From Gemmatimonadota bacterium (GTDB taxonomy: Bacteria; Latescibacterota; UBA2968; UBA8231), in assembly GCA_018660835.1 (NCBI GenBank), contig JABJJN010000089.1, positions 1 through 64,000 of the forward strand: a stretch of DNA of 64,000 nt, in the 5' to 3' direction. Positions 25,291 through 31,948 of the stretch are shown here, one piece after another. Under the pieces are notes generated by a model, which was given only the letters and a program-made list of their open reading frames with translations, was not told the origin of the DNA and did no database searches. Position 1 is the stretch's first letter; each line of letters opens with the position of its first letter. Position numbers and translations under genes: made by a program.

Positions 25291-26070
25291 ATGTCATTGC
25301 CGAGTCCATTTCGCATCATCGCCCATCGCGGTGCCTCGGGTTATGCCCCGGAAAACACAATGGCCGCTTTTCGTGCCGCCATGACGATGAGTGTCACTGA
25401 AATTGAGACAGACGTGCATTTCAGTCGCGATCGGCAGTTGCTCTTGCTGCACGATGACACACTCGAGCGTACGACCAATGGCAAGGGACGACCGGGTGAT
25501 TTCGACCTGGAGGAACTCAAGTCCTTGGACGCCGGCTCGTGGGCAGACCCGGAAAAGAATGCAGACCTGGCGTGGACATCGGATTTCGCTGGCGAGTCCC
25601 TGATCACTCTCGATGAATTGTTTGCTGAATTCGGCGCTCGACTCACCTACCATGTGGAACTGAAGGATCCGGAATACGGCGTAGCGGAAGCAGTCGCCGA
25701 GAGTGTGGGTGCTGCAGGTCTGGCAACACAGACGTTCGTCACCGGCTTTGAGCGCTCCAATGATTTGCTGCGAGCGCGTAGTGCGCTGCCAGGACTGCGC
25801 ACGACACCCCTGATTCCAACCTCGCGTGATCCGGGCGAGGCGATTGCCACATGTGCCGACGAGGGCCACGACGGCGTCTCGATCCACATCGATGCGGCGA
25901 CGACAGAATTGGTTGAAATCGCCCACGGTGCAGGCCTGGAGATCCGCTGCTGGGGCGTGCGTACGCGAGAATCGATGGCGTCAGGTGCAGCCTGTGGCAT
26001 CAACGGCATGACCATCAATTGGCCTGATTGGCTGCAAGAGTGGGCCGCAACCGAGTCTTCTCGGGCCTAG
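25291..26070 (+). CDS. Glycerophosphodiester phosphodiesterase family protein
   Basis: A 259-aa GDPD TIM-barrel protein. The catalytic His is in IIAHRGASGYAPENTMAAF, metal ligands are in ETDVHFSRD, the second catalytic His in LLHDDTLERTTNGKG, and a Glu in YHVELKD. It would cleave glycerophosphodiesters to glycerol-3-phosphate and an alcohol. No signal peptide is visible, so it is likely cytoplasmic. It stands alone upstream of the exosortase cassette leader. Confidence 0.9.
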   Translation: MSLPSPFRIIAHRGASGYAPENTMAAFRAAMTMSVTEIETDVHFSRDRQLLLLHDDTLERTTNGKGRPGDFDLEELKSLDAGSWADPEKNADLAWTSDFAGESLITLDELFAEFGARLTYHVELKDPEYGVAEAVAESVGAAGLATQTFVTGFERSNDLLRARSALPGLRTTPLIPTSRDPGEAIATCADEGHDGVSIHIDAATTELVEIAHGAGLEIRCWGVRTRESMASGAACGINGMTINWPDWLQEWAATESSRA

Positions 26071-26212
26071 TGCCTCGGCCCAGTATGTCCCTCGAGATGC
26101 TTTGTGCGCCGCATGGAGTGAAAGAGGCGGACTTTTCCCCCCTCTAGGGCGTTGTTTCCATATGTGGCCATCTGCGCGAGGCGGCCCACCAAGGTGCCTT
26201 GATTTGGCACAC

Positions 26213-26248
26213 ATAACATGTTGTAAAAACTACATGTTATAGTTTTTT
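26213..26248 (+). promoter_or_regulatory. Overlapping alternative stem-loops, attenuator-like
   Basis: Two hairpins share bases and cannot form together. Hairpin 1 pairs ATAACATGT (26213-26221) with ACATGTTAT (26232-26240), a perfect 9-bp stem with a 10-nt loop. Hairpin 2 pairs AAAAACTA (26225-26232) with TAGTTTTT (26240-26247), an 8-bp stem with a 7-nt loop ending in a T-run, like an intrinsic terminator. The segment is AT-rich in a GC-rich genome and lies 83 bp upstream of the exosortase cassette. It could instead be an operator (hairpin 1 as a DNA palindrome) or simply the GDPD terminator. Confidence 0.45.
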
Positions 26249-26290
26249 GATTATCTCCGCAAAGTAGGCATGGGCTTTGCAATAAAGTAT

Positions 26291-26320
26291 CCGAATATGG
26301 TGAATTGTATCAAAATTCGG
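26291..26320. promoter_or_regulatory. Inverted repeat just upstream of cassette start
   Basis: CCGAAT at 26291-26296 and ATTCGG at 26315-26320 form a 6-bp inverted repeat with an 18-base spacer, ending 10 bp before the GTG start of the DUF4252 gene. It could be an operator or a ribosome-site-masking hairpin. The evidence is weak because the arms are short. Confidence 0.25.
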
Positions 26321-26330
26321 ATAAACGCCC

Positions 26331-26897
26331 GTGCTGACTCCCCTGTTTCATCGGTGCCTCGACCAGTTTAGCTGGTGCCTCGACCTACCTCGCAGGTGCC
26401 TTGACCTGCTCCGACTCCTGCTTGTCTTCAGCCTGCTCGCCGCACCGGCCTATGCAGGCGACGGCGGCAGCGAGCCGGGACGTCTCGATCTGGTCGCTCT
26501 CGGTTTTGAACCTGTCGTCGAACCGACCGTCGATCTCACAATCGACGCGGCTCAGTTCGCCATTGCGGCTCTCGTCGCGGCAGAAACCGACGCCGACCTT
26601 GCAGCTCTGTTGGGGAATGTGGAGGCCTTCTGCCTGCGCCAGTACTCCCCACCCGATGCGGCGACCTTCGCTGCTGCACAGGTGCTGCCCGCAGCGATCG
26701 TCGCCGATGGCTGGCAACTGGTGCAGGCTGAGACCCAGGGCTCACGGCAGGTCACGGTACATCTGAAACTCGACGGTCTTGTCGTCGGCGGTTTGGCCGT
26801 CATTGCCATCGACGCGGATCGAGAAGTCTCCGTCGCCAACGTCGTCGGCAACATCCAACCGGCTCAGTTAGCCACCCTTGGGCTCCCTCTCCCCTAA
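26331..26897 (+). CDS. DUF4252-like exported protein
   Basis: GTG start; 188 aa. An odd N-terminal lead (residues 8-28) holds three CLD-centred heptads, encoded by a 21-bp tandem repeat (units beginning at 26353, 26374 and 26395). A signal-type hydrophobic core follows (LRLLLVFSLLAAPAYA, cleavage near residue 42). The mature part fits DUF4252: beta-rich, PTVDLTIDA, then LLGNVEAFCLRQY, DGWQLVQAE and the near-terminal VANVVGNIQPAQLATL. Family function is unknown. It overlaps the next gene by about 20 bp, so translational coupling is likely. Confidence 0.7.
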   Translation: MLTPLFHRCLDQFSWCLDLPRRCLDLLRLLLVFSLLAAPAYAGDGGSEPGRLDLVALGFEPVVEPTVDLTIDAAQFAIAALVAAETDADLAALLGNVEAFCLRQYSPPDAATFAAAQVLPAAIVADGWQLVQAETQGSRQVTVHLKLDGLVVGGLAVIAIDADREVSVANVVGNIQPAQLATLGLPLP

Positions 26898-28542
26898 GCA
26901 CAACGGACGCCGACTCTGGCGTCGCGCATCCATGTGGCTTTTGCCACTTGTATGGACAGGTCTGTGCTCACACACCGATGCGCAAGTGCTCACTGTACCG
27001 CCCGCGACGGGCCTCAGTGGCGAAACCATCGTCGCCTCTTCTCCTGGACAAGAGGTCGTCATTTATCACGTCGGCCTGCTCGGATTGCTCAACAAGGCGA
27101 GCTTGGAGCAGATCGAACTACAGATTACGCCACTGACGTCGCCGCTGGTGGCGGGCTTGTCGAATGGCGACATCAAGAATCTTCATCTGATTGAGAGTAC
27201 CAACCATCTCTATGGCGATGGCGATGATGTGGAGCTCAATAAGGTGAAGGGCAAGGACATCGTGGTGGATGGCGGTGTCACCGTCATCACAGACGGTGGC
27301 AGTGCGACACCGGTGGGATTGTTTCCTCTGCCTGTAGGCGAGCTCATCCGGCACTACTTCGTTGTCGCAGAGATTTCACCAAGTGCGGTGGATGGCCACG
27401 CCTTCCGCGTCGGCGCCGCCGTCGGACACATCACGGTATCGACGCCGACGAACACGGGACTCCCTGTGTGGGCGTCGAATGATGATCGAGTCGTCATCGG
27501 CGGACTTGTCGTTGTAGATCCACCCGAATTGGTGGCACAACCAAACAGCTACGAATTTGACCCTGTTCTGGTGGGCGGCACAGACACACTCATCGTGACG
27601 CTGAGCAATCCCGGCACAGTGGCAGCGCAGATCAGTGATGTGACGGTCAGCAATGGTGAGTTCCATGTAACACCGACGAGTTTCACAGTTGACCCGAGCA
27701 ACGAACAGCAGCTCATCGTCGTGCATGCACCAACGCGTACAGGTCCCATCACGGGACAGGTGAGAATCGACGTCGTCGATCTCGAGGCAGATGTCACGGT
27801 CAATATGAGCGGCTTCGCAGCCAGCGCGGGCCTGACCCTGTCAGCGACATCGGTGGACTTTGGTCTTTTGACCTACGGTGAGGTAGGCTCCAGACAGATC
27901 GAGTTGAGCAATCTGAGCGACATACCGATCGACGTCACGGACATCTCCATATCGGATTCGCAGTTCAGCACACCCATCGTCCCCTTCACCCTGGCTCCCT
28001 GGCAAGTCACCACCATGCCGCTGAGTATCGAGGCGACGAGCCTGGGCACCAAAACAGCGACCTTGTCGATTCGGCACGAGGGGGACCCGCAGCCCGTGGA
28101 CATTTCTTTGCGCGCTGACGCAACCATCGCCCTGGGCAGCGTGAATCTCAATTTTGGCCGCATCACCCCCGGGGAAACGGCGCTCTTGCCGGTAACAGTT
28201 GACAACCCTAGTGGCGCTGATGTCACCATCACGAGCATCACCTCCGACAACCCGCGGTTCGTTCCAGACCACAGCACCTGCGTGATCCCCGCGGGCGGTT
28301 CCGTTGATATCATGATTGCCTTCACACCAACAAACTTCTCTCGGCAAGAAGCGACACTGTCGATCACCCACAATCCCACCGTTTTCGTCGGCGTCCTAGC
28401 AAACCCCTTCGGCCGCGGTGCGTCTGCCGGTGTCGACGCCTCGGGCAATCCACTCAATACGCTGCAGGTTCCCTTTGGCGGCGAGTGGTTGGCCTCCATC
28501 TTGATCTGTCTGTATGCCTTGTTCAGGCGTAGGACGGCATGA
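26878..28542 (+). CDS. Choice-of-anchor (ASH-repeat) surface protein with IPTL-CTERM-like sorting tail
   Basis: A 554-aa protein. TTG 26878 is used here; ATG 26932 also gives a signal peptide (WLLPLVWTGLCSHTDAQ). Residues 40-213 are an unrecognised beta domain. Three ASPM/SPD-2/Hydin-type Ig-like repeats follow (about 215-312, 318-414 and 416-510). The C-terminus is tripartite: a short motif VPFGGEW (531-537), a hydrophobic helix (538-549) and RRR (550-552). The P-x-x-x-E-W spacing is that of the IPTLSEWG motif recognised by XrtH, with the T-L-S positions replaced. The exosortase gene starts 4 bp before this gene's stop. It is the likely substrate of the adjacent exosortase. Confidence 0.8.
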   Translation: MGSLSPKHNGRRLWRRASMWLLPLVWTGLCSHTDAQVLTVPPATGLSGETIVASSPGQEVVIYHVGLLGLLNKASLEQIELQITPLTSPLVAGLSNGDIKNLHLIESTNHLYGDGDDVELNKVKGKDIVVDGGVTVITDGGSATPVGLFPLPVGELIRHYFVVAEISPSAVDGHAFRVGAAVGHITVSTPTNTGLPVWASNDDRVVIGGLVVVDPPELVAQPNSYEFDPVLVGGTDTLIVTLSNPGTVAAQISDVTVSNGEFHVTPTSFTVDPSNEQQLIVVHAPTRTGPITGQVRIDVVDLEADVTVNMSGFAASAGLTLSATSVDFGLLTYGEVGSRQIELSNLSDIPIDVTDISISDSQFSTPIVPFTLAPWQVTTMPLSIEATSLGTKTATLSIRHEGDPQPVDISLRADATIALGSVNLNFGRITPGETALLPVTVDNPSGADVTITSITSDNPRFVPDHSTCVIPAGGSVDIMIAFTPTNFSRQEATLSITHNPTVFVGVLANPFGRGASAGVDASGNPLNTLQVPFGGEWLASILICLYALFRRRTA

Positions 28543-29066
28543 CGACGCCAACCCTCACCAACTCCCGTCGCCGCCGCCTCGGATTCTGTCTGCTCTTTGG
28601 ACTGTGGGCCGTGGTGACGGCCTTCACACTCGAACGATGGGATGCGGCACTGAGTCTTCCCTACATGTCAGCGATCTCCTATGTGTCGGCCCTCTTGTTG
28701 AACACCATCGGCGTTCCTGTCACACTGGGAAGCGTGCCAGGTAGCTTTGCCATCCTGAGTATGGATCACGTCGTATTTCACGTAACGCGCGAGTGCACGG
28801 GAGTCTATGCCCTGGGTCTGTATGTCGCTGCAGTTCTTTCCTATTCGGCGACCTTGCCGCAGCGCTTGCAGGCACTCAGCTGGGGCTTACCCGCATTTTT
28901 CATCTACAGTGTGGCCCGACTGATGGTGCTTGCCCTTGCCGCACGGTGGGTGCCTGAATGGACACAGTTTCTGCACGTGTATCTGCTCGTGATCGTGAAT
29001 GCCGGCTTTCTCCTCTGGTTGTGGGCCGTGTGGGTGAATCGACTCGCCAGGATGTCGCCACAGTGA
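28539..29066 (+). CDS. Exosortase, XrtH-like
   Basis: A 175-aa multi-helix membrane protein. The three exosortase catalytic positions are visible: C86 in TRECTGVYALG, R127 in YSVARLMVLA and H146 in FLHVYLL. The small size fits the compact XrtH type. Exosortases cleave and transfer proteins bearing C-terminal sorting tails in the cytoplasmic membrane. It overlaps the substrate gene by 4 bp upstream and the next membrane-protein gene by 4 bp downstream. The subtype is inferred from size, neighbours and the substrate motif. Confidence 0.85.
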   Translation: MTTPTLTNSRRRRLGFCLLFGLWAVVTAFTLERWDAALSLPYMSAISYVSALLLNTIGVPVTLGSVPGSFAILSMDHVVFHVTRECTGVYALGLYVAAVLSYSATLPQRLQALSWGLPAFFIYSVARLMVLALAARWVPEWTQFLHVYLLVIVNAGFLLWLWAVWVNRLARMSPQ

Positions 29067-29584
29067 GTCAGGCAATCCTGCTACGACGTCCGGGACTTTT
29101 TCTCGGACTCTTCGCCTTGGTCACGGCCTTGTCGCTGCCAGTCTGGGACGTCCTGTCCTCGTACTACATGCACGGCGTCATCTGGATCGTTAACGGTGGG
29201 CTGTCTTTGTTCGGTCCCGCTGTGCGATTGCCATCGACACTCGTGCGCGAGGGTGTCTATCCGGGAATCGCCGGCGCCATCGCCCTGTTCCTCGTCACGC
29301 CACGGCGCAGCTTTGTGTGGAAGCTTCGCTGGATCACCTTCCTCATGATGATCATGCTGGTTGTGCACGCCGGTATCCTGTTGGCAGGAGCGATGCAAGC
29401 TATTCATGGATCGCAAGCCGTTTACGGCTCGCTCGCCTCTGCTTCGCTGCCATTGCGACTACTGCAGACATGGGGAACATCGTTGTTCGTCATCTGGATC
29501 TGGTTTGTCGCGCTGCAACGCCACGACGAAGAGCGGTCCGCTTTACATGAGCGATCCGATCCACAGGAGCGATCGCAGGACTAG
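29063..29584 (+). CDS. Exosortase-associated membrane protein
   Basis: GTG start at 29063 overlaps the exosortase stop (GTGA), which fixes the start over longer in-frame readings. The 173-aa product has about four membrane helices (near residues 11-28, 66-80, 87-110 and 125-150) and a charged tail with three ERS units at the C-terminus. Proteins of this size and placement accompany XrtH as exosortase-H-associated membrane proteins; that assignment rests on context more than on motifs. Confidence 0.65.
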   Translation: MSQAILLRRPGLFLGLFALVTALSLPVWDVLSSYYMHGVIWIVNGGLSLFGPAVRLPSTLVREGVYPGIAGAIALFLVTPRRSFVWKLRWITFLMMIMLVVHAGILLAGAMQAIHGSQAVYGSLASASLPLRLLQTWGTSLFVIWIWFVALQRHDEERSALHERSDPQERSQD

Positions 29585-29657
29585 TCAGGGAACACGACCG
29601 CTCCCGGATCGTCTAGGCAGATGACCCCACGTGCCCTTCCACCAGACGACCCTCTCA

Positions 29658-30326
29658 ATGGCTCACCGTCAGGCCCTGTCAGCTCTCTTCTGCCTCTCCT
29701 TGGTTTTGTTGCCGTCCACATCAGATGCGGACAATCCAGGTGGCTCGCTCATGTTATCTGGAAATGGCAGTGGCCTCTACGATGCACATGAGTGGCCGGA
29801 GTTGGCGCGCAGTCTGGTGACGCTTCTGGTCGTTCTGGCCAATGATGACGACGAGTGGGATTACGAGGATGACAGCTACCACCACCACGACAGCTTCTGC
29901 GAGGATGACCTCGGCATCTCGGTGCCGCAAGCACAGTTCGACGTGGGCCTGAGCTATTTCATCTCACCCTCACTTGCCGTGGGGGCTCGCTATCTGTTCA
30001 GCGAAGATTTTCGCGACAACGAGTTGTCTCGCCTCTGGGGAGGCGGTCCTGAGTTAACACTCTTCATGGGTCAAGACGCGTCGCGGATTCGTCCCTTTGT
30101 TGGCGGCGGGCTGATGTATACACGCGGACGTTCCCGGCGCGGTGCAGCGGAATTTGAGGACGGCACCGCGCTCCATTGGCGGGCTGGCGTGCACTTCCCC
30201 GTGGGTCCGGCGGGTGGCCTCGTCGTCCAGGGCGGCTGGCGCGACGACAGGTTTCCCGTTGAATCTGAGCCACTGGCGCGTCGCGTCGCCGGCATCGGGG
30301 TCGGCTTCACAGCCCGCTTCAATTAG
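29658..30326 (+). CDS. Outer-membrane beta-barrel-like protein
   Basis: ATG at 29658 gives a signal peptide (about residues 1-24, ending TSDA); GTG 29631 would add nine residues. The 222-aa product has an acidic, His-rich stretch at residues 63-84 (seven Asp/Glu clusters around HHH and one Cys). Alternating beta-strands follow (FDVGLSYFISPSLAVGARYLF, IRPFVGGGLMY, WRAGVHFPVG, VAGIGVGFTARF), consistent with a small outer-membrane barrel. It follows the exosortase pair by 73 bp and overlaps the convergent GT39 gene by 4 bp. Its link to the sorted protein is inferred. Confidence 0.65.
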   Translation: MAHRQALSALFCLSLVLLPSTSDADNPGGSLMLSGNGSGLYDAHEWPELARSLVTLLVVLANDDDEWDYEDDSYHHHDSFCEDDLGISVPQAQFDVGLSYFISPSLAVGARYLFSEDFRDNELSRLWGGGPELTLFMGQDASRIRPFVGGGLMYTRGRSRRGAAEFEDGTALHWRAGVHFPVGPAGGLVVQGGWRDDRFPVESEPLARRVAGIGVGFTARFN

Positions 30327-31948
30327 TAGCGATACTTTTTCAGGATCTCCCACAGGGCCGGCATAGACTCGCGTGGCCGCGAGACGAGCACGATCGGCAC
30401 ATCGGTTTCTCGGGCATAGGGGTGGGACACCCGGGCGATTTCCTTCACTTCGTGAAACAGACCCGACAGGTTCTGGGCGTCTTCACCGATGAAGATCATA
30501 GGATCTCCCGTCGCATGGCCGAATCCCCAGAGCCAGAAACTGCTGCTCTTGCTGATGACGGGCGGCAGGCCAAGCTCATCGCCGTAGCGCACCAGCGCCC
30601 CCGCCTGGCCGTAGTTGGAAGCGGCGATATCAGCTGGCCCAACATCGTCAAACACCGCAGCGACTGCCTGAGCCTGTTCCCGCCAGCCGAGCATGTCTGC
30701 ATAGTCCTGAGGCAGATCGTGAATCGATCCATCCTCCCAGCGAAACGCCTCTGCCAGTCCCAGATAGCGCATCCCGAATCGACCAAAAGTTATCGTTGAT
30801 TCGATCGACAACAGAGGGATCGCGATGGGGACGGTCGCCAGGGAGCCAAAGAATACGACGAGAGGGATCGCCACGAGCCAGCGGCGCGCCTGACGTCGTT
30901 GCAACATCGACTCGATCGCAACAGCCCCCGCTGCAAGGAGCATCGCATAGGCTGGCGCGAGATAGTAGATCTTGCCACTGAACAGCAGCAGTACGGCCAG
31001 ATTGCCCAGATACAACCAGGCAATGGGCCGCAGCCGCTCACCTGCTGCCGATAGCAGACACCACCACAATCCGATGAGCCAGATCGGCGTGCCATAGAGA
31101 TTCACCAGCGCCTGGCTCAGCAGAAATGTGACTGGGTCGACATGAGCAAGCTGGCGACTGGCAAGCGCCCCCATATGCTCGATGACGGGAAAACCTTCCT
31201 GCCACTGCCACACGAGATTCGGTGACCAGATCACGAGTGCCAGACCTGCCGCCAGCCATGGCCATGGCGTCTTCAATTGTGACCGCTGTCGAGACAGGAT
31301 CAGCCCCACGAAGGCACCCGCGAGAAACAGCAGGATCGTGTACTTCGTCAGCAGACCGGCGCCCACTACGGCGCCGAGCCAGAGCCAGTCCGACGCACGC
31401 TCATGGAGCAGTGCGCGCACGAGCAACCAGGCTGCCGCCACATAGGCCAGCTGCTCAAAGACCACCGGCTGAAACAGGATATTTGCACGCAGGTATATGA
31501 CACCAACTGTAAAACCGAGTGCCGCCAGTAGTTGTGCCCAGCGCCCACCGCCCAGGTCAGCTGTGATGCGTACCGTCAGCCACAGAGTGACCGCAGCGGC
31601 CAGGGAGGGAAGCAGTCGCACCCCTGCGACCCACGTACCAAACAGGGCGTCGGCGATGGCACCGAAAAGAGCGATCATCGGTGGCACTTCCAGATATCCC
31701 CATCCCAGATGATCTCCCATGGCCAGATAGAGCAGTTCGTCGCGATGGAAACCCCAATCGCTGTGGACGAGAAAGGGCAGCAGCAGTTTGAGTAGCAGCA
31801 GGAGCGCAACCACGAGCTTGAGTGGCTGAGCAGTCTGTGCGTCTGCAAAGGACTTGATCAGACCCACTCCCCCTATCGAAGAGGGCCCCGACTCTTCTAT
31901 CTTCAACTCGATTCCCTCTCTCACTTCATCTCCACAAGGTCCAATCAC
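30323..31948 (-). CDS. GT39-like (PMT/ArnT-type) membrane glycosyltransferase
   Basis: A 541-aa protein with about 10-12 membrane helices and the family N-terminal signature: an acidic pair in GFHRDELLYLAMG, then GYLEVPPMIALFG in the first extracytoplasmic loop. A C-terminal periplasmic domain follows from about residue 400. Such enzymes transfer lipid-linked sugars to proteins or lipid A. The ATG at 31948 lies 3 bp from the divergent GH4 start. An internal GTG near residue 28 (VGLIKSF) could be the true start, leaving room for promoters. It converges on the exosortase cassette. Confidence 0.8.
   Translation of the reverse strand: MIGPCGDEVREGIELKIEESGPSSIGGVGLIKSFADAQTAQPLKLVVALLLLLKLLLPFLVHSDWGFHRDELLYLAMGDHLGWGYLEVPPMIALFGAIADALFGTWVAGVRLLPSLAAAVTLWLTVRITADLGGGRWAQLLAALGFTVGVIYLRANILFQPVVFEQLAYVAAAWLLVRALLHERASDWLWLGAVVGAGLLTKYTILLFLAGAFVGLILSRQRSQLKTPWPWLAAGLALVIWSPNLVWQWQEGFPVIEHMGALASRQLAHVDPVTFLLSQALVNLYGTPIWLIGLWWCLLSAAGERLRPIAWLYLGNLAVLLLFSGKIYYLAPAYAMLLAAGAVAIESMLQRRQARRWLVAIPLVVFFGSLATVPIAIPLLSIESTITFGRFGMRYLGLAEAFRWEDGSIHDLPQDYADMLGWREQAQAVAAVFDDVGPADIAASNYGQAGALVRYGDELGLPPVISKSSSFWLWGFGHATGDPMIFIGEDAQNLSGLFHEVKEIARVSHPYARETDVPIVLVSRPRESMPALWEILKKYRY

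Follow-up and report, generated by a model that had tools for sequence, protein, structure and literature searches.

A compact exosortase cassette with a putative dedicated C-terminal sorting tail, and related enzyme-tail pairs in one bacterial family

Organization of the cassette

The window, i.e. the whole stretch of DNA analyzed here, covers positions 1 to 64,000 of contig C29 in its source genome, and at positions 26331-30326 it carries five open reading frames (ORFs) on one strand, which encode a DUF4252-like protein (P0001), a candidate sorting substrate (P0002), a predicted exosortase (P0003), its putative partner membrane protein (P0004) and a predicted β-barrel (P0005) (Table 1). A first-pass annotation of this DNA had described five same-strand genes with 4-bp overlaps around the exosortase gene, and both overlaps are seen: that of the P0002 stop with the P0003 start, which reads ATGA, and that of the P0003 stop with the GTG start of P0004, at 29063-29066. 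P0005 starts 46 bp downstream of P0004. The 4-bp overlap between substrate and exosortase is also present in two relatives (G005 and G011) and on contig C8 of the source genome. Substrate, exosortase and partner are predicted to constitute the core unit, with the DUF4252-like and barrel genes outside the conserved core.

Table 1. Features of the exosortase cassette, with positions in the window
Feature	Position	Strand	Basis or remark
P0001, DUF4252-like secreted protein, 188 aa	26331..26897	+	PF14060 below gathering; hydrophobic leader
P0002, putative substrate	26878..28542	+	Leader, N-terminal domain, three ASH stretches, C-terminal sorting tail
C-terminal sorting tail of P0002 (putative): VPFGGEW, hydrophobic stretch, RRR	28468..28539	+	
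P0003, predicted exosortase, 175 aa, C86/R127/H146	28539..29066	+	TIGR04178 over cutoff
ATGA overlap of P0002 stop and P0003 start, 4 bp	28539..28542	+	
P0004, putative exosortase partner membrane protein, 173 aa	29063..29584	+	Gene position; helical model
P0005, predicted outer-membrane β-barrel, 231 aa	29631..30326	+	Weak PF13505 match
Block absent from same-genus genome G001, with 121 bp in place	26047..30659		blastn breakpoints and synteny

Here G000 denotes the window's own genome, G001 and the following numbers its relatives, C a contig and L an extracted locus. The G000 bin comprises 7.1 Mb and is 93% complete and 8% contaminated; C29 is placed in the genus because it is colinear with the same-genus genome G001. 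The phylum set comprised 64 genomes, own included, in which an exosortase was counted as present on a match at E up to 1e-8 (G001 and G056 gave weaker matches in another search), and the tail family was sought with a profile hidden Markov model (HMM) built from ten tails, at E below 1e-3. Tail and proteins were also compared with the curated libraries Pfam and NCBIfam.

P0003 is a predicted exosortase outside the named subfamilies

P0003 passes the model of the exosortase/archaeosortase superfamily, TIGR04178, with 33.6 bits against a cutoff of 23. The residues Cys86, Arg127 and His146, correctly numbered in the first-pass annotation, are invariant in all 17 aligned sequences (the window's and 16 others), and a conserved Cys, Arg and His in this order are what we take to be the catalytic set of the superfamily. 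By family, P0003 is predicted to be an exosortase, and its tail-cleaving activity is putative. It remains below the cutoff of every named exosortase subfamily model that it matched: the best score is that of XrtX (NF046081; 62.1, cutoff 170), followed by archaeosortase B (TIGR04144; 50.3, cutoff 150), XrtH (TIGR04177; 38.8, cutoff 86) and XrtF (38.1, cutoff 90), with the remaining subfamilies lower. "XrtH-like", as the protein had initially been called, is hence a loose label, as two other models score above XrtH. G000 contains five exosortases, none of which matches XrtH over its cutoff.

The exosortases closest to P0003, with 65-68% identity, are found in G005 and G009, and 9 of the 64 genomes carry members of its group. 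In an exosortase tree of 20 loci, the partners of VPFGGEW, IPFGGE[T/P] and IPFQSKW tails constitute separate groups (support 100/100, 93/89 and 93/93), and the deeper branches between them are without resolution. Several further loci were noted during this survey. The fifth exosortase of G000, a distant one, lies with a partner gene on contig C44 (L006 8867-10083), and same-genus G001 shows a weak match (L045, E 2e-5) with neighbors that are similar by eye. G013 contains an exosortase-partner pair (L046 4409-6961) near a protein whose C-terminus, IPSHSEY followed by a hydrophobic stretch and by basic residues, may be another variant of the signal. By eye, the C-terminal domains of large proteins adjoining several exosortases (L007, L009, L034, L040) are FlgD-like and recall the sorting domains of type IX secretion.

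The substrate and its tail

P0002 was read from a TTG start at 26878 (an alternative ATG lies at 26932). Its N-terminal domain (about residues 37-207) has no Pfam match and recurs in 12 of the 64 genomes, own included; this domain of about 170 residues occurs both in tail-bearing substrates and, in tandem copies, in a large protein with an end that is dockerin-like by eye (L036 3588-4322, L150 11741-12502, L117). The three ASH stretches match PF15780 with 93.9 bits (gathering 27, E 7e-27), and the choice-of-anchor-D model NF012200 is matched with 96.8 bits (cutoff 45), which bears out the earlier description of an ASH-repeat choice-of-anchor protein. The same can be said of the tail, described as VPFGGEW, helix and RRR: the motif occupies residues 531-537 of 554, after which come 12 residues, most of them hydrophobic, and RRR (VPFGGEW-LASILICLYALF-RRRTA). 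When the 24 tail codons are compared between the window and G005, there are 10 synonymous and 6 amino acid changes, and the first 9 codons are free of the latter.

The window tail has no match at E up to 10 in either model of IPTL-CTERM (PF18203, TIGR04174), both of which detect a control IPTLTEWG tail of the same phylum (34.6 and 38.6 bits, respectively); the window tail does lie outside these models, as had been proposed. An IPTL tail over the cutoff was found in none of the nine genomes tested.

A family of FGGE tails

The window tail has relatives, for which we coined the name FGGE: VPFGGEW, VAFGGEW, VPFEGEW, IPFGGE[T/P], VPFGGE[V/F] and IPFQSKW. They appear from their sequences to constitute a tail family, found here in one bacterial family. 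No sorting-signal model of Pfam or NCBIfam reaches its cutoff with any FGGE tail; below the cutoff, the C8 tail matches PF18203 (16.3 of 20.8) and the G011 tail matches VPLPA-CTERM (12.1 of 25.35).

When the 25 genomes of the family, G000 among them, were scanned with a degenerate DNA pattern, approximately [VI][PA]Fx[GS][EK]W, 21 matches came up: by reading frame, 8 are C-terminal ORF tails, 12 are non-tails and the remaining one closes a frame of 84 residues. All three matches in G000 are tails near exosortases (C29 VPFGGEW, C8 VAFGGEW, C73 IPFQSKW); the reversed control pattern gave one match. A second pattern without W added the IPFGGET tail of C75, as two of its nine matches in G000 are tails (C29 and C75). 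G000 thus has four FGGE tails, among them a single VPFGGEW tail, directly upstream of P0003, which fits the one-substrate pair that had been suggested.

With the ten-tail profile, 16 matches were found in 9 of the 64 genomes, four of them in G000, the next best E-value being 0.02. Ten of them are training tails by construction, and the other six, not used in training, are G005 C782, G012 C374, G001 C126, G001 C140, G007 C62 (VPFGGEV) and G013 C266 (VPFGGEF). Clades were also left out of the training one at a time, and the profiles searched against 6004 six-frame ORFs from 25 sequences, rather than whole genomes, with L041 set aside, its tail being identical to a trained one. In all six clades a left-out tail was the top ORF without a trained (or identical-to-trained) tail. 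For the window clade, the G005 ortholog (E 6e-5) and the window (E 0.003) were the top two untrained ORFs among the 6004; for the others the E-values were 1e-6 (C8), 6e-7 (G011), 1e-5 (G006) and 3e-6, 0.019 and 0.63 (IPFGGE[T/P] tails). By this left-out ranking the tail is more than a product of chance.

The FGGE tails are found on at least three types of cargo. ASH repeats precede them in the window and C8 and, by sub-cutoff or related matches, in G007 C62 and G013 C266; the N-terminal domain alone is the cargo in G011, C75, G007 C173 and G013 C122, and by eye only in G006 C182; a BNR/YCF48-type propeller is found in C73 and G009 C257, and by similarity in G005 C782. One type of tail across unrelated cargo resembles a sorting signal. 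It had been noted that the Pro-to-Glu-Trp spacing of IPTLSEWG is kept and T-L-S replaced; this is so in the window tail and does not extend to the family, as W is missing in IPFGGET, IPFGGEP, VPFGGEV and VPFGGEF. To regard VPFGGEW as a signal by itself was likewise too narrow, since it is one variant of a wider family common to a set of exosortases in the lineage.

Pairing of tails with exosortases

Two tail genes of G000, those of C29 and C8, overlap their exosortase genes by 4 bp, and a third starts close to its exosortase on C73; the rough probability that three of the four tails would lie by chance within 2.5 kb of an exosortase is 2e-7. We infer that the fourth pair comprises the exosortase of C11 and the tail of C75, because both contigs break off within the same GDDGTP-coding repeat and their genes are ordered as in G007 C121. 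In relatives too, the tail adjoins the exosortase, in G005 and G011 as in G000 C8, so that the linkage on which the first-pass annotation depended recurs outside the window. As P0003 also passes an exosortase model, the annotation withstood both of the refutations that it had named. On the other hand, the FGGE tails of G006 C182, G007 C62 and G013 C266 are not beside an exosortase.

Intact tails are present in seven of the nine exosortase-bearing genomes; of the other two, G019 gave no tail and G052 carries a canonical CPTLNEWG protein in the vicinity of its exosortase. Tail matches in two of the remaining 55 (G001 and G012) resemble remnants. For this co-occurrence the Fisher p is 2e-6, or 6e-8 for intact tails alone, and it becomes 3e-7 and 5e-7 if G001 and G056 are counted as exosortase-bearing, kinship being ignored in all these values. 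Besides, the identity of exosortases and that of tails go together: r is 0.957 for the seven physically linked pairs (exact permutation p 8e-4), 0.81 when each of the four linked clades contributes a single pair (p 0.04) and 0.925 for a set of nine that includes two pairs assigned by gene order (p 1e-4).

Tail genes cut to end pieces were observed in G001 (L183 5203-5310 and L184), G012 (L097 10717-10950) and G002 (L098, tail scraps in two frames). None of these three genomes has a matching exosortase at E 1e-8, which looks like a joint loss of substrate and enzyme.

The putative partner protein

Of the 20 loci in the tree, 19 have a partner-type ORF, recognized by position and appearance, after the exosortase, and several of these show overlaps of 4-8 bp. 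Just 5 of these ORFs match P0004 at E 1e-3 in BLAST; an alignment of 12 partner sequences has four nearly invariant columns, and structure prediction for P0004 gave a helical model (pLDDT 73.6). When the XrtH-associated model XrtH_assoc (NF041730) was searched, as the first-pass annotation had recommended, P0004 gave no match, and none of 11 genomes had a match over the cutoff.

A probable dedicated exosortase system

Taking the tail family and its pairing together, we consider it likely that the cassette is a compact dedicated exosortase system with one substrate, one exosortase and one partner, in which the VPFGGEW tail is recognized and cut, and that the FGGE variants track exosortase clades, with several pairs that appear to coexist in one genome. 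P0002 would be exported by means of its leader peptide and held in the inner membrane by the C-terminal VPFGGEW-helix-RRR tail. P0003 would recognize this tail and, if it acts like other members of its family, Cys86 would cut at or near the motif, with the assistance of Arg127 and His146. By the same analogy, the new C-terminus may be handed to an acceptor, and the ASH-repeat protein may then be anchored at, or released from, the cell surface. P0004, judging by the gene order, probably acts beside the enzyme. A further-reaching proposal, for which we see even chances, is that the exosortases radiated within this lineage, every paralog acquiring a private substrate and a diverged signal (FGGEW, FGGET/P, FQSKW), with parallel, mutually insulated sorting channels in one cell as the result.

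Several observations weigh against a dedicated system of this kind. The C8 locus is the sole one among 20 without a partner gene, and no tail for the C44 exosortase was found in G000. On C73 the tail gene starts 0.9 kb from the exosortase and the tail itself is 2.1 kb away; the pairing of C11 with C75 crosses a contig break, that of G007 C121 with C173 relies on gene order and domain, and the four enzyme-tail pairs of G000 may not all come from one organism, because of the contamination of the bin. There is no adjacent substrate for the exosortases of G006 C26, G007 C47 and G019 C341, and in the profile search G019 gives no tail with an E-value below 0.4. The left-out IPFQSKW tails reached E-values of 0.07, 0.16 and 0.32 only, and the IPFGGEP tail with E 0.63 ranked under two unrelated ORFs, so that it is in part by rank and context that these tails are counted in the family.

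The flanking genes and the block missing in G001

The outer genes of the cassette have been assigned with less assurance than the first-pass annotation suggested. P0001 falls just below the gathering threshold of DUF4252 (PF14060; 22.1 bits against 23.9), and its hydrophobic leader ends in APAYA; three in-frame 21-bp repeats (at 26353, 26374 and 26395, spanning 26353-26415) encode CLD-heptads at the beginning of the protein, before the leader, and the start codon is tentative. P0005 matches the barrel model PF13505 weakly (15.2 bits, cutoff 28.7). Homologs of P0001 are present in 3 of the 59 other genomes (G017, G021, G042) and those of P0005 in 2 of 59 (G012, G002), all of them without an exosortase match at E 1e-8. 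In G005 and G009, the genomes with the closest exosortases, no match to either protein was found, and other genes lie downstream of the partner.

In G001 the flanks are colinear with the window, and 121 bp replace 4.6 kb with all five genes (blastn breakpoints: window 26046/30660, L195 5491/5613); no part of that genome matches P0001 or P0005. Convergent to the cassette, at 30323-31948, lies a gene for a membrane glycosyltransferase, GT39-like by eye, and its G001 homolog has lost its C-terminal end at the deletion junction, its frame running into the opposite strand of the neighboring gene. The shortened gene suggests that the block was lost in G001, and from the sequences the five-gene block apparently can be lost as one piece.

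It had been surmised that the DUF4252-like and barrel proteins belong to one surface system with the exosortase. Such a five-gene machine, in which the barrel would carry or hold the processed ASH protein at the outer membrane with the assistance of the DUF4252-like protein, is compatible with a dedicated exosortase system, and the single strand, the short gaps and the joint absence of all five genes from G001, with nothing of P0001 or P0005 elsewhere in it, speak for it. However, neither protein has a match in G005 and G009, where different genes follow the partner, and the deletion need not mark a functional unit, since it also took the end of the GT39-like gene. We therefore hold this extension to be rather unlikely, although it deserves to be kept in mind.

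Less probable readings: drift of a known signal, or a plain anchor

A dedicated system also has to be weighed against the possibility that the cassette is a common XrtH/IPTL-CTERM system, in which the signal has simply drifted and has no separate specificity. The Pro-to-Glu-Trp spacing of the window tail would agree with such a drift, as would the weak match of the C8 tail to PF18203 and that of the G011 partner to XrtH_assoc (16.9 against 35); moreover, canonical tails lie near exosortases in two genomes of the phylum (IPTLTEWG in G056 and CPTLNEWG in G052), and both kinds of signal may therefore share an origin. Against this stand the low XrtH score of P0003, the absence of any IPTL tail over the cutoff in the nine genomes tested, the loss of W from several tails, and a tree rooted on the canonical pair and C44 that splits the groups at 95/94, with a warning of long branches. 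On balance we find simple drift improbable.

That the substrate is just anchored in the membrane by its C-terminus, the exosortase acting on a product encoded elsewhere, is a highly improbable reading: linkage is not universal, as the close exosortases of G007 C47, G019 C341 and G006 C26 show, but of the four G000 tail genes, three either overlap one of the five exosortases or begin no more than 0.9 kb from it, linked pairs codiverge, and the exosortase-poor G001, G002 and G012 hold mere scraps of tail genes.

Relation to known systems

The dedicated system proposed here is most readily compared with XrtH/IPTL-CTERM/XrtH_assoc (TIGR04177, TIGR04174, NF041730), in which, presumably, the exosortase gene is likewise adjoined by that of a partner membrane protein, and with which the window variant shares a tripartite tail and the Pro-x3-Glu-Trp spacing. 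It differs in that the window cassette is under all three curated cutoffs, that F-G-G stands in place of T-L-S and several FGGE members are without W, and that there is about one tail per exosortase in G000. XrtX and archaeosortase B, the two best subfamily models for P0003, are far from their cutoffs. XrtF, too, is a variant exosortase with an adjoining partner gene; its targets are reported to be unknown, whereas a candidate target adjoins P0003, which also scores well below the XrtF cutoff.

Dedicated sorting systems, i.e. one enzyme with a single target, have been defined for rhombosortase (PMC3237569); they comprise one enzyme and one nearby target, as here, in single-target genomes, whereas several pairs with diverged signals appear to coexist in one genome in our case. 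An active-site cysteine and lipid attachment at the C-terminus are described for archaeosortase A, along with an acyl-enzyme model that is speculative (PMC7157517), and exosortase targets are stated to be attached to the surface or released and to be tied to extracellular polysaccharide (PMC12188702). In the literature searched, which did not cover the main exosortase paper (Haft et al.), no published description of FGGE tails or of parallel private pairs was found. The enzyme is of a known kind; as far as this search goes, the class of signal and the set of parallel private pairs are apparently the new part.

Conclusions

The FGGE tails constitute a putative C-terminal sorting class that is recognized by neither Pfam nor NCBIfam, and the way in which it came to light suggests a route to other uncatalogued sorting signals, namely to inspect the gene that overlaps an unclassified exosortase. 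To our knowledge, it is not settled how exosortases choose their substrates. Several codiverged enzyme-tail pairs apparently occur here in one genome, and since the pairs have diverged together and each has one candidate target, specificity can be tested by swapping tails between them. If the sorting channels are indeed insulated from each other, the lineage would offer a natural set of enzyme-signal pairs from which the specificity of exosortases may be read.

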